DNA of 64,000 nt from Thermacetogenium phaeum DSM 12270 (lineage in GTDB: Bacteria; Bacillota; DSM-12270; Thermacetogeniales; Thermacetogeniaceae), in NCBI RefSeq assembly GCF_000305935.1, contig NC_018870.1, positions 1,319,942-1,383,941 on the forward strand, written 5' to 3'. Shown piece by piece: positions 877 to 6,479 of the stretch (positions within the stretch are counted from its first letter, which is position 1; the number at the start of each line of letters is the position of its first letter). The position numbers and the translations under genes are program-made. The notes below the pieces were generated by a model. It had not been told where the DNA came from, did no database searches, and saw only the letters and a program-made list of their open reading frames with translations.

Positions 877-2205
877 CTAATAAAGGTTCATGTACTTCTT
901 GATTTCCCAGTCGTGAACTTCTTTGTTGTAAAGATCCCATTCGTGCTCCTTCAAGAGAATGTATTTTCGATAGATGTGCTCGCCGAGGACGTCGCGCATA
1001 AAGGCGCTCTCTTTAAAGATTTCGATGGCCTCGCCCAGGGTACGCGGGAGCGTCTTGATGTTTAACTTGTTTCTTTCTTCTGGTGAAATTAGGTAAAGGT
1101 TCTCTTCTATCAGCGGTGGTGCTGCAATGTTGCCGGAAACTCCCTCCAGGCCGGACTTGATAACGGCTGCTAGAGCCAGATAGGGGTTGCAAATGGGATC
1201 TGGACTGCGCAGTTCAACCCTGGTGTCGCTGCCTCTAGCGACGGGAACCCTTACCAGAGAACTGCGGTTGCCTTTTGCCCAGGCTACATAGAGCGGTGCT
1301 TCGTGCCCCGGTACCAGGCGTTTGTAGGAATTGACTGTGGGATTTGTTACGGCCGTGAACTCGAGCGCCCGCTCCAGGATACCGCCGATAAAAGACAAGC
1401 ATAACGGGGTTAATTCCATGGGCGCCTGGGGATCGTAAAAGAGGTTTTCATCCCTGTGGAAGATAGAAAAATTCAGGTGCATCCCAGAACCGCTTTGGTC
1501 GGAGAAGGGTTTCGGCATAAAAGTTGCTTTTAAACCGTGTCTGAATGCTATCACTTTGACGACGGTCCTGAATGTGGTAATGAGGTCGGCAGCAGCTAAG
1601 GCGGGGAGGTATTTCAGGTCTACTTCATGCTGGCCCGGGGCTTCTTCATGATGCGACGCCTCCACAGAGTAGCCCATTTCCTTTAAGGTTATAACAACCT
1701 CACGGCGGGCATCTTCACCCAGGTCTGCAGGGGCGAGATCAAAATAACCGGCGCTGTCATGTGTCTGCAGTGTATGGCTGTTATTTTCATCGTTATGAAA
1801 AAGGAAAAACTCTATTTCAGGACCAACTTGCACGGTATAACCCTTTTTTTCGGCCTCTGCTAGGACATTTTTGAGAACCTGGCGTGGGCACCCCGGAAAA
1901 GGTGAACCGTCGGGGAGAACAATATCGCAGATTAATCTGGCTACCCCGCCCGCCCGAGGGCGCCACGGGAATACCGTAAATGTGGCGGGATCGGGACGGA
2001 GATACATATCGGATTCTTCAATCCTGGCAAAACCCTCCACGGAGGAACCGTCAAACATTACTCTACCTTCAATTGCCCGTTCCAGTTGGTCAACAGTAAC
2101 GGAAACATTTTTGAGAACTCCAAGGATGTCAACAAACTGCAAGCGCACAAACTGAATATCGAGCTCCTGTGCGAGGCGCAAGACATCGTCGGCGGTAAGG
2201 CTCAA
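877..2205 (-). CDS. glnA: Glutamine synthetase, type I (first copy)
   Basis: Makes glutamine from glutamate, ammonia and ATP. The 442-residue length fits the GSI-alpha class of Firmicutes. Family motifs are present in order: DGSSVEGF, the ATP-binding GSGMHLN segment, NPTVNSYKRLVPG, and ELRSPDPICNPYLA. The start is TTG with AGGAGGG 7 nt upstream (positions 2213-2219). It lies 300 bp behind a second glutamine synthetase on the same strand, separated by a terminator-like hairpin, so it probably has its own promoter. I found no convincing ANTAR hairpin pair in its leader (2206-2430). Two adjacent GS genes suggest different regulation or a divergent substrate for one of them; the sequence does not say which. 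Confidence 0.93.
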   Translation of the reverse strand: MSLTADDVLRLAQELDIQFVRLQFVDILGVLKNVSVTVDQLERAIEGRVMFDGSSVEGFARIEESDMYLRPDPATFTVFPWRPRAGGVARLICDIVLPDGSPFPGCPRQVLKNVLAEAEKKGYTVQVGPEIEFFLFHNDENNSHTLQTHDSAGYFDLAPADLGEDARREVVITLKEMGYSVEASHHEEAPGQHEVDLKYLPALAAADLITTFRTVVKVIAFRHGLKATFMPKPFSDQSGSGMHLNFSIFHRDENLFYDPQAPMELTPLCLSFIGGILERALEFTAVTNPTVNSYKRLVPGHEAPLYVAWAKGNRSSLVRVPVARGSDTRVELRSPDPICNPYLALAAVIKSGLEGVSGNIAAPPLIEENLYLISPEERNKLNIKTLPRTLGEAIEIFKESAFMRDVLGEHIYRKYILLKEHEWDLYNKEVHDWEIKKYMNLY

Positions 2206-2505: not shown

Positions 2506-3846
2506 TCAAAACTTTTTAAGGTATTGGGCATTCTCCCAGGGGTGTACCTGGATTCTGTAGGTGTTCCATTCTAACTTCTTGGCTGCCAGAAACTTTTCAT
2601 ATATATGAGTACCCAGAGCTTCTTGCACTACGGTGTCTTTTTGGAGTTCTATTATCGCCTCACCTAAATTTTGCGGGAGAGTGTTAACCCCCAGTCTGTT
2701 CAGTTCTTCTTCGGTCATTTGGAAAATATTTTGATTAACAGGGGGAGGGGGAGCAATCTTATTTTTAATGCCGTCCAGTCCTGCTTTTATGATGACGGCA
2801 AAAGCAAGATAGGGGTTACAAGAGGGATCCGGGCTCCTCAGCTCAAAACTTGTGCCTTCACCCCGCCGGGCCGGAACCCTTACCAACGGGCTTCTGTTTC
2901 TGGGCGACCAGGCAATATAAACTGGCGCCTCGTATCCTGAAACCAGCCGCTTGAAGGAGTTGACAAGCGGGTTTGTAATGGCAGTATAGCCCCGGGCATG
3001 CTTTAACAAACCCCCCAGGTAATACATAGCAGTTTCACTTAATTGGAGAGGCTTTTCCGGATCGAAAAAGGCGTTCTTACCATTTTTGAATAGGGACTGG
3101 TTAACGTGCATTCCGGAGCCTGCAATGCCGAACACAGGCTTTGGCATAAAGGTGGCATGCAAACCGTGCAGCTGGGCGATGGCGCGTACTACATATTTGA
3201 AGGTGACAACATTGTCTGCTGTTGTCAGAGCATCGTCATACTTAAAATCGATCTCGTGCTGCCCAGGAGCAACTTCATGATGGGATGCCTCCACTTCAAA
3301 CCCCATTTTTTCTAATGTTGAGACGATATCACGGCGTGTGTCTTCGCCGCGATCAAGAGGATTTAAATCAAAGTAGCCCGCCTCATCGTGGGTGGATGTT
3401 GTCGGATAGCCGTTGCTATCAGTGTGAAATAAAAAGAATTCAGCTTCCGGGCCAACGCAGATGGTGTATCCCATTTCTCGGGCTTCTTTCAGCACTCTCT
3501 TCAGAGCGTAACGAGGGCATCCAGCGAAGGGAGTGCCGTCGGTATTGAAGATGTCGCAGATTAGGCGGGCTTCAACTCCATCACGAGAGTGCCAGGGAAA
3601 GATCGTGAAGGTTGCCGGATCGGGAACCAGGTACATATCCGATTCTTCAATCCTGACGAACCCCTCGATTGATGAGCCGTCGAACATAACACCGCAGTTG
3701 AGGGCTTTCTCCAGTTGTTTTACAGTAATGGAAACGTTTTTGAGCACCCCGAAAATGTCTGTGAATTGAAGCCTAATAAATTTAACTCCGTTTTCTTCTG
3801 CCAGTTTCAGGACATCTTCCTTGGAATGTGCTAGACGCGACACCAA
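2506..3846 (-). CDS. glnA: Glutamine synthetase, type I (second copy, nitR-linked)
   Basis: 446 residues, with the same GSI signature blocks as its neighbour: [28 protein letters not shown] and [14 protein letters not shown]. The C-terminus has the VHPWE segment typical of Bacillus/Clostridium GSI-alpha. The TTG at 3846 lies only about 5 nt from AGGAGG, so the GTG one codon downstream (3843) may be the real start. The gene follows the ANTAR regulator gene by 31 bp on the same strand and is presumably cotranscribed with it, under control of the attenuator in the nitR leader. A glnA-nitR pairing with an ANTAR regulator is known from solventogenic clostridia. Confidence 0.93.
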
Positions 3847-3877: not shown

Positions 3878-4492
3878 TCATTTAATGTTGTCCTTCCGTG
3901 GGATTTCTTTTAAGTCATTATTGATGATGACTGCTTCAGCTACCTTTCGTAGAGGGATACACCTGTCCATGCTCTGTTTCTGTAAGATTCTGTATGCCTC
4001 GGCTTCGGAAATGTTCATTTGTTTCATTAAGATGCCTTTGGCCTTTTCGGTCAGCTTTCTGGTTTCGATTTTTTCATGGAGACTTTTTACCTGGGACTCG
4101 AGTTCCCGAATGTGCCTGTAGTAACTGATGGATGTGGCAATGGCAGGAAACAATTTATCATCACTTAATGGCTCGATAACATAGCTGAACGGGTAGGATT
4201 CCTGGATCGGGTCAACAAATGTCGGGCGGGATGAGCCGTTGACGATGATAAGTATGGGGGCAATTCGATCCTCAAAAAGAACCCGTCCCAACTCGAGAGC
4301 GTTAATTCCTTGCAAGTTTGTTTCTGCGATTATCAGATCCGGTTGGTAGTTGCGGGCATAACGCAGCGCTTGGAGCCCTTCTTCCGCTTCTGCGATTAAG
4401 TGGTAACCGCCCCTATTGAGCAGCTGTTTCAATGTACAACGCAGTGTTTGGTGGGCTTTTCCTACAACAATCAGAATCCTTGGCCGATCCAT
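3878..4492 (-). CDS. nitR: ANTAR-domain antitermination regulator with degenerate receiver (NitR-like)
   Basis: About 204 residues. Residues 1-120 have a CheY-like receiver fold and the C-terminal 60 have an ANTAR RNA-binding domain ([24 protein letters not shown]). ANTAR proteins bind paired hexaloop hairpins in nascent RNA and prevent termination. The receiver has lost its phosphorylation chemistry. The acidic pair is VGK where DDE is usual ([10 protein letters not shown]), the phospho-acceptor Asp is Glu ([10 protein letters not shown]), and the conserved Lys is Glu (YVIEPLS). ATG at 4492 has GGAG 10 nt upstream; the GTG at 4501 is too close to that site. The adjacent glnA and its own leader indicate nitrogen control and autoregulation. 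Confidence 0.88.
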
Positions 4493-4516
4493 CTGGTTCA
4501 CACTCCGCAGTCGCGC

Positions 4517-4564
4517 AAAAAGAAAAATGTCCTTTAAAGGGTAGTATAACCCTCCTCAAGGACA
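4517..4564 (-). terminator. Attenuator terminator in the nitR leader
   Basis: On the minus strand the arm TGTCCTT (4564-4558) pairs with AAGGACA (4534-4528), with an inner GGGT/ACCC stem. TTTTTCTTTTT follows (4527-4517). It ends 24 nt before the nitR ATG, so it can stop transcription before the regulator and glnA. Its 5' arm overlaps the second ANTAR hairpin, which makes the two structures mutually exclusive. Confidence 0.82.
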
Positions 4565-4600
4565 CCTTTGCCCGTTCATAACCGTTTCCCGCCTTTGGGA
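4560..4600 (-). promoter_or_regulatory. Two-hairpin ANTAR target (antiterminator) in the nitR leader
   Basis: Hairpin 1 is TCCC-AAAGGC-GGGA (4600-4587). Hairpin 2 is GGGC-AAAGGT-GTCC (4573-4560), after a 13-nt linker. Both have hexanucleotide loops with A at position 1 and G at position 4, the hallmark of ANTAR substrates as described for the Enterococcus eut leaders. The 3' arm of hairpin 2 is also the start of the terminator stem. The stems are short (4 bp, one G-U pair in hairpin 2), so the call rests on loop identity, pairing, spacing and overlap together. Confidence 0.75.
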
Positions 4601-4629
4601 TCCCGCGAGGGATTTTTATTTCCACTTGT

Positions 4630-4658
4630 ATTATGCACTTGGTGTTTTTAGATGTCAA
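4630..4658 (-). promoter_or_regulatory. Promoter of the nitR-glnA operon
   Basis: On the minus strand, TTGACA (4658-4653), a 17-bp spacer and CATAAT (4635-4630) match the sigma-A consensus at 11 of 12 positions. It lies about 140 bp upstream of nitR, leaving room for the ANTAR attenuator leader. Confidence 0.8.
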
Positions 4659-4760: not shown

Positions 4761-4774
4761 GTATACATGTATAC
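4761..4774. promoter_or_regulatory. 14-bp perfect palindrome upstream of the gltB-like promoter
   Basis: GTATACATGTATAC is a perfect palindrome ending 14 bp upstream of the -35 box of the following gene, and lies between two divergent nitrogen promoters. The position suits an activator or shared operator. The protein that would bind is unknown. Confidence 0.45.
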
Positions 4775-4788
4775 ATAAAAAATCTTGC

Positions 4789-4816
4789 TTGACAACGAAC
4801 AACGGAGAGTTATGAT
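4789..4816 (+). promoter_or_regulatory. Promoter of the glutamate-synthase-like gene
   Basis: TTGACA (4789-4794), a 16-bp spacer and TATGAT (4811-4816) form a strong sigma-A type promoter. It leaves a leader of about 80 nt before the ATG at 4905. Confidence 0.8.
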
Positions 4817-4860
4817 CTAACGCGAAAAAAGCCCATGCGATGGCGTGTGGAAAAGAAATT

Positions 4861-4880
4861 CCTGTGCAATGGGGTGCAGG
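4861..4880 (+). promoter_or_regulatory. ANTAR-type hairpin in the gltB-like leader
   Basis: The stem CCTGTGC/GTGCAGG (7 pairs including two G-U) encloses the hexaloop AATGGG, which has the A1/G4 identity of ANTAR targets. It ends 13 nt before the Shine-Dalgarno AGGAGG. No terminator lies between hairpin and start codon. A weaker upstream hairpin with loop ATGGCG (about 4833-4853) could be the first member of the pair, but its stem is mostly wobble pairs. The 5' foot TTCCT could alternatively pair with AGGAG of the ribosome site, so translation control is possible. Confidence 0.5.
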
Positions 4881-4904
4881 GGGACAATACAAGGAGGTAA
4901 TAAA

Positions 4905-6479
4905 ATGTCACTCAGTAAACCAAATGCTAGCGTGGCCACTTTAACCAAGAACCGCACAAAGAATGTTTGCCCCTTTAGCGGTCTCTGTGCCACCTGTGTG
5001 GATGGATGCGCCGGTCTCTGCGAGGTCGGCAAATCTGCCTATCGAGGGAAAGAAGTCCTTTATCCCCAGCCTTTCGGGAAGAACACCTCTGCTTCGGAAA
5101 AAGATTACCCGATCGACCTTTCGCACTTTAATATTATGGGGCGTGCTTCCGGTGCCTGGGGAGTCAAGGCAGATAGCGATGAAGCTATCTTCCCCGCGGT
5201 GGATGTCTCTACTGAAATTGGCGGCACTGCCAAGATTAAGATGAAAGTTCCCATCATTATAGCAGGCATGGGATCCACTGAAATTGCCCGGATTCACTGG
5301 GAAGGGCTAGCCGCAGGGGCAGCCATTACCGGTTCTGTGATTGTTATCGGGGAAAATGTTTGTGGGATGGACCCTAAGGTAGAGATCAGGAACGGACGAG
5401 TTGTCCGTTCACCGGAACTGGAAAGGCGTGTCAAGGTTTTTCGTGATTGGTATGACGGCTATGGAACGGTAGCGGTGCAGGCTAATGTAGAGGATACCCG
5501 TCTGGGTGTTCTGGAATATGCCATTGAGAAGCTTGGCGTTGATGCTGTTGAAATAAAGTGGGGGCAGGGTGCAAAAGACATCGGGGGTGAGGTTAAGCTG
5601 AACTCCCTGGAAAGCGCCCTGCAGTTGAAGGAACGCGGATATGTCGTACTTCCCGATCCTACGGATCCTGCCGTACAGGAAGCTTTTCGGAAGGGAGTTT
5701 TTCGCGAATTTGAACGCCACTCCCGCATCGGAATGGTGGATGAAGAGGCATTCCTGGAAAGGGTTGATCGGCTCCGCAAGCTGGGTGCAAGGTATGTTTT
5801 CCTCAAGACGGGAGCATATCGGCCGGTTGACCTTGCCCGGGCCGTCAGACTTTCCTCCCTGGCTCGCCTGGATCTCCTTACGGTGGACGGAGCAGGCGGC
5901 GGCACAGGGATGAGTCCCTGGCGGATGATGAACGAATGGGGAATCCCGACCGTCTACATTATATCTCTCTTGCGTCAGTATCTGGACTGTCTGTCAGAGC
6001 GCGGAGATTTTATCCCCAGTGTTGCCGTTGCAGGTGGTTTTTCTCTAGAAGACCATCTCTTTAAAGGGTTTGCTTTAGGAGCACCTTATGTGAAGGCAAT
6101 CGGCATGGCCCGTGCTCCTCTGACCGCGGTGATGGTTGGGAACAAGATCGGCCGGGATGCCGCTGCCGGCAAGCTCTCCAGCGAACACAGCAAATACGGG
6201 GATACTATTGAACAGATCTTTATCACCAGCAGCGAATTGAAGGCCCGCTTCCAGAATGATTTTGACAAGCTGCCGACCGGTGCTATTGGGCTTTATACCT
6301 ATTTTGATCGGCTCATGCAGGGATTGCGGCAGTTAATGTGTGGGGCTCGAAAGTTTGCGCTTAATTACATCGACAGAAATGATATCGCAGCTCTCACACG
6401 GGAAGCAAGTGAGGTCAGCGGGATTCCATACATCATGGATCTCAACAAAGAACAGGTTGAACAAATCCTCGAGTTTTAA
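4905..6479 (+). CDS. FMN-binding glutamate synthase family protein (GltB-like)
   Basis: 524 residues. The body is the FMN-binding TIM-barrel of glutamate synthase (IIAGMGSTEIARIHWEG, VDGAGGGTGMSP, VAVAGGFSLEDHLFKGFALG), without the N-terminal amidotransferase and C-terminal GXGXG parts of full GltB. The N-terminus has a Cys cluster (VCPFSGLC, TCVDGCAGLC) that may hold an Fe-S centre. The start is ATG at 4905 with AAGGAGG upstream; the longer frame back to 4845 has no site. Stand-alone proteins of this kind are common in anaerobes, and their exact reaction is often unproven. Its position divergent from nitR-glnA, and the hairpin in its leader, support a role in ammonia assimilation. Confidence 0.85.
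   Translation: MSLSKPNASVATLTKNRTKNVCPFSGLCATCVDGCAGLCEVGKSAYRGKEVLYPQPFGKNTSASEKDYPIDLSHFNIMGRASGAWGVKADSDEAIFPAVDVSTEIGGTAKIKMKVPIIIAGMGSTEIARIHWEGLAAGAAITGSVIVIGENVCGMDPKVEIRNGRVVRSPELERRVKVFRDWYDGYGTVAVQANVEDTRLGVLEYAIEKLGVDAVEIKWGQGAKDIGGEVKLNSLESALQLKERGYVVLPDPTDPAVQEAFRKGVFREFERHSRIGMVDEEAFLERVDRLRKLGARYVFLKTGAYRPVDLARAVRLSSLARLDLLTVDGAGGGTGMSPWRMMNEWGIPTVYIISLLRQYLDCLSERGDFIPSVAVAGGFSLEDHLFKGFALGAPYVKAIGMARAPLTAVMVGNKIGRDAAAGKLSSEHSKYGDTIEQIFITSSELKARFQNDFDKLPTGAIGLYTYFDRLMQGLRQLMCGARKFALNYIDRNDIAALTREASEVSGIPYIMDLNKEQVEQILEF

Follow-up and report, generated by a model that had tools for sequence, protein, structure and literature searches.

Introduction

Dual-hairpin ANTAR targets that overlap terminators were described in 2012 (PMC3369931; commentary PMC3369936). 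The set reported then comprised leaders of glutamate/glutamine synthase genes, ammonium transporters and regulators, from Desulfotomaculum and others (PMC3369931, PMC3369936), and glutamine synthetase leaders were already among its members. The antitermination mechanism has been established for EutV (PMC3369931, PMC8934654), and one hexaloop was found to be the minimal binding unit in structural work (PMC8934654). The pseudo-receiver of another ANTAR protein, AmiR, binds a partner (PMC3369931, PMC3369936).

Here we analyse the leader of the nitR and glnA genes of Thermacetogenium phaeum, located in a 64,000-nt stretch of its genome (the window). The leader is best explained as an ANTAR-target antitermination switch with NitR as its most likely reader, so that nitR would be autoregulated and glnA controlled along with it. 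We assign this reading a probability of about 0.92.

Layout of the nitR-glnA leader

The leader is read from the minus strand and precedes nitR (3878–4492), which encodes a degenerate receiver and an ANTAR domain. The next gene, glnA (2506–3846, minus strand), encodes a type I glutamine synthetase and begins 31 nt past the stop codon of nitR. The proposed placement of the target in front of an ANTAR gene and glnA is correct. No terminator-like site was found in the 31-nt gap. A second ANTAR target at this position is absent from the window; one genus of the family has such a target between nitR and glnA in two loci (L014, 2098–2137; L015, 2120–2159). The most likely start codon of nitR is ATG 4492, with GGAG at 4506–4503, 10 nt upstream, and GTG 4501 is kept only as an alternative.

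A sigma-70-type promoter is located at 4630–4658 (minus strand). It consists of TTGACA (4658–4653), a 17-nt spacer and CATAAT (4635–4630) and matches the consensus at 11 of 12 positions. TTGAC(A/T)...TTCATAAT is found at the matching position in the leaders of relatives, and the promoter that had been proposed from the window alone is thus kept in the same arrangement. Further downstream, a small hairpin, ATCCC-TCGC-GGGAT (4600–4613, minus strand), abuts the 5' side of hairpin P1 and shares one base with it. None of the relatives' leaders that were inspected shows such a hairpin.

The two hairpins P1 (TCCC-AAAGGC-GGGA, 4587–4600) and P2 (GGGC-AAAGGT-GTCC, 4560–4573), both on the minus strand, have short stems and hexanucleotide loops with A at position 1 and G at position 4, as had been claimed. 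They are separated by a 13-nt linker, and the stem of P2, the proposed antiterminator, includes one G-U pair. The intrinsic terminator occupies 4517–4563 (minus strand). Its stem (4563–4528) begins inside the 3' arm of P2, with GTGTCCTT pairing with AAGGACAT, and is directly followed by the U tract TTTTTCTTTTT at 4527–4517.

We searched both strands of the window with a strict pattern, defined as a pair of A1/G4 hexaloop hairpins separated by no more than 40 nt plus a terminator overlapping the second. The pattern occurs once, and it did not occur in any of 40 first-order Markov simulations. As far as sequence can tell, the leader has every feature of a terminator-overlapping ANTAR-target RNA.

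Terminator and antiterminator folds

The terminator region alone has a computed folding energy of -22.4 kcal/mol. When the leader is folded through its first U run, the structure containing the terminator reaches -34.1 kcal/mol, compared with -25.3 kcal/mol when P1 and P2 are enforced, which indicates that the two states are mutually exclusive and that OFF is the default without protein. The 5' arm of the terminator is the 3' arm of P2, as the sequence-only reading had it, and its terminator coordinates were right. In cells, the terminator would be expected to win by default, and P2 would have to be held by something to block it.

Without an active ANTAR protein, the nascent RNA would fold into the terminator (4563–4517), and transcription would stop before nitR. 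The hexaloops of P1 and P2 would be bound by an ANTAR protein in its active state, and NitR is the most likely one. With P2 held, its 3' arm would be unavailable to the terminator, allowing the polymerase to continue into nitR and glnA. The outcome would be positive autoregulation of nitR together with coupled control of glutamine synthetase.

Conservation of the ANTAR target

NitR was searched in 61 genomes, and the nitR leaders of five other genomes of the same family follow the same two-hairpin plan. In an alignment of 12 related leaders, 98% of P1 is paired, double changes affect four of its five pairs, and 23 double-change cells were counted. Its covariation score is 0.574, compared with 0.203 in shuffles, and was reached by none of 500 shuffles; no slid register exceeded 0.18. 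In the same alignment, variation in P2 is one-sided (G-U, G-C, A-U), as expected for an arm that is also needed for the terminator. Double changes are missing, so the antiterminator pairing of P2 rests on conservation and on P1. Compensatory changes had been anticipated for both stems; they are present in P1 and not in P2.

These data bear on a simpler explanation, in which the promoter and the intrinsic terminator form a plain constitutive attenuator and P1 and P2 have no role. The terminator alone is strong, as such an attenuator would require. P1, however, lies outside the terminator and yet shows compensatory changes and an invariant G at loop position 4, which makes a constitutive attenuator very improbable.

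No Rfam family matched the leader above its gathering score. The Rfam matches in the window, all outside the leader, are two tRNAs, a piece of a group II intron and a cobalamin riboswitch. We know of no ANTAR-target family in Rfam, so for such a target the result is neither positive nor negative evidence. It does bear on the idea that the leader acts as a riboswitch and directly senses a small molecule such as glutamine. Riboswitches for glutamine are known from other bacteria, but no riboswitch family matched this leader, and its conserved core consists of two short hairpins with ANTAR loop signatures, adjoining an ANTAR gene. We give a riboswitch practically no credence.

Two covariance models were used for the ANTAR target. 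Model R1 was built from eight leaders, two of them from the T. phaeum genome. Since it includes the window's own sequence, its score for the window is circular, and R2 was built to avoid this from 12 leaders that all come from other genomes, without any T. phaeum sequence. Across the whole 2.94-Mb genome, R2 ranks the nitR-glnA leader first (31.1 bits, E 3.6e-4); a covariance-model search had been proposed as a check. The second match is the leader between nitR2 and the glutamate synthase operon (25.3 bits, E 0.0094), and a lower match is the leader of a third glutamine synthetase, which has a good terminator (17.0 bits, E 0.94).

Across 399 genomes, R2 detected 29 sites at E ≤ 0.001. Among the 16 sites that are neither in the training set nor in the T. 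phaeum genome, 14 precede glnA, nitR, glutamate synthase, amt or eutA, where the genes were named by eye from N-termini or first residues, not all by HMM, and the two amt loci come from near-identical genomes of one genus. For R1, seven of ten out-of-training sites precede nitrogen genes, and its targets across the phylum are found before glutamate synthase, glnA, amt and a glutamate-dehydrogenase-like gene. In other members of the phylum, the ANTAR target is thus found upstream of glnA, glutamate synthase, amt, nitR and eut genes.

Loop composition was counted in 35 two-hairpin targets, 23 of them outside the training set. G4 is present in all 35 in each loop. Position 1 is A in 31 and G in four targets, again in each loop. 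The two loops have A at position 2 in 34/35 and 35/35 targets. Part of this conservation is built in, as the sites were found with the model. Judged from these targets, the known A1/G4 rule reads "A or G" at position 1. The expectation that the loops keep A1/G4 was borne out for G4 and in part for A1, and as a rule it is slightly too strict.

Variant leaders

In some nitR leaders, including that of nitR2 in T. phaeum and those of several relatives, only P2 and the terminator are present. In the nitR2 leader, the predicted start leaves little space for P1, and a recognisable P1 was not found in the leaders of some relatives. These single-hairpin variants agree with one hexaloop as the minimal unit (PMC8934654).

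Loci L145 and L146, both from one genus, have no terminator; here the P2 3' arm (TCCTCAC) can pair with GTGAGGA, the ribosome-binding site of amt. In L022, the P2 3' arm can pair with a GAGG before nitR. We infer that the three are translational versions of the target, and L145 and L146 point to possible translational control in Firmicutes. One further locus, L062 (G003:C22), contains a two-hairpin target and terminator followed immediately by the apparent 5' end of a group II intron, and looks as if the intron had been inserted behind the terminator.

Other nitrogen and eut leaders of T. phaeum

Leaders similar to that of nitR-glnA precede nitR2, the glutamate synthase operon, a third glnA and eut genes in T. 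phaeum. The set outlines a small regulon in one genome. The third glutamine synthetase, of about 460 aa and of a different type, is preceded by a two-hairpin target and terminator (L114, G000:C1:895669-895706, minus strand). A hexaloop hairpin, AACGGC, with an overlapping terminator is found between eutV and eutA of the T. phaeum genome (L005, 7030–7110). Downstream of the nitR-glnA operon, the window contains a second type I glutamine synthetase gene (877–2205, minus strand). Its leader carries no ANTAR target in T. phaeum; the homologue in another genome (G004) has one (L070).

The T. phaeum genome encodes three ANTAR proteins: NitR, NitR2 (at about 885,000) and EutV (at about 722,000). Together with the very similar targets at nitR2, the glutamate synthase operon, the third glnA and eut, this makes cross-talk possible. 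The leader could then be a true ANTAR target that is read mainly by NitR2 or EutV, in which case nitR would not be strictly autoregulated. The target is, however, directly upstream of nitR-glnA in T. phaeum and in most family members, and we consider a main reader other than NitR unlikely.

A glutamate-synthase-like gene (4905–6479, plus strand) is divergent from nitR. Its leader (4817–4903, plus strand) contains the second R2 match in the window (4833–4879, 10.1 bits, E about 1) and two hexaloop hairpins, CCATGC-GATGGC-GTGTGG and CTGTGC-AATGGG-GTGCAG. We do not claim an ANTAR target here, as near relatives keep the second stem with a loop that is not a conserved hexaloop. Glutamate-synthase-like homologues in other families do carry ANTAR targets (L083, L100, L102, L142). 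The sequence GTATACATGTATACAT at 4761–4794 (plus strand), 12 bp upstream of the -35 element of the divergent gene, looks like an operator of some DNA-binding regulator. Sites of the form GTATACAT or GAATACAT are present upstream of the nitR or glutamate-synthase-like promoters in relatives, and upstream of nitR2 in T. phaeum. Genome-wide, the GTATACA..TAT DNA motif is no commoner than a reversed control.

NitR has a degenerate receiver

The C-terminal domain of NitR matches the ANTAR family (PF03861, E 2.5e-21, 75.7 bits, above the curated cut-off), and its receiver-like domain matches PF00072 (E 2e-8). The nearest solved relatives of NitR are 1s8n, a putative antiterminator, and 6wsh, a response regulator. 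We compared the receiver residues of NitR, 28 homologues and EutV of the same genome in one alignment. NitR has K/A at the acidic pair, E in place of the phospho-acceptor Asp, V at the Thr/Ser position and E at the Lys position. EutV keeps the full set (D/D, D, T and K), and the acidic pair is missing in most NitR homologues. By these residues, NitR lies outside the phosphorylatable receivers of the EutV class and belongs to the pseudo-receiver (AmiR-like) class. The loss of the phosphorylation residues makes phosphotransfer unlikely, and NitR would more probably receive its signal from a partner protein or a ligand than from a kinase. As the phosphorylation site is lost in these NitR proteins, another nitrogen signal must control them.

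GlnA is the obvious candidate for the partner. Its gene adjoins a nitR homologue in 22 of 30 loci. The T. phaeum enzyme is a type I, Bacillus-like glutamine synthetase and keeps the FVRIEES segment, which includes the Arg on which inhibition by glutamine depends in B. subtilis. The lost phosphorylation residues, the Bacillus-like GlnA and the frequent linkage of nitR with glnA lead us to suggest, tentatively, that the degenerate receiver docks GlnA. Glutamine-inhibited GlnA might then sequester NitR and thereby terminate its own transcription, a scheme that we consider doubtful. In Bacillus, GlnR and TnrA are controlled by glutamine synthetase. If true, docking of GlnA would be an RNA-level counterpart of this control.

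Discussion

Both structures, their overlap, the conservation and covariation of the target, and the linkage to nitR-glnA are supported at the level of sequence. We infer NitR binding, read-through, a default-off state in cells, cotranscription and autoregulation. In this thermophilic syntrophic acetate oxidizer, the locus would provide a clean, conserved case of ANTAR control that covers both glutamine synthetase and its own regulator.

That the leader represents a new example of the known ANTAR-target mechanism is well supported, in a comparison made without the 2012 supplementary tables. Like the eut leaders of Enterococcus faecalis (PMC3369931, PMC8934654), it contains two short hexaloop hairpins with conserved loop positions 1 and 4, the second of which overlaps an intrinsic terminator, and its putative reader is a receiver-ANTAR protein. 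E. faecalis EutV, however, has an intact phosphorylatable receiver, which NitR lacks, and the genes controlled here would be glutamine synthetase and the regulator itself. The nitrogen leaders of Desulfotomaculum and others (PMC3369931; PMC3369936) share the type of regulon and the overlapping terminators, and differ in species. The dual stem-loops and A1/G4 loops are also common to actinobacterial ANTAR RNAs (PMC8164766). Those RNAs have highly divergent sequences and may act in translational regulation, whereas the T. phaeum leader is of the firmicute, terminator-overlapping type. AmiR of Pseudomonas aeruginosa is, like NitR, an ANTAR protein with a non-phosphorylated pseudo-receiver. AmiR is held by the ligand-binding AmiC, while the neighbours of nitR are glnA and a glutamate-synthase-like gene.
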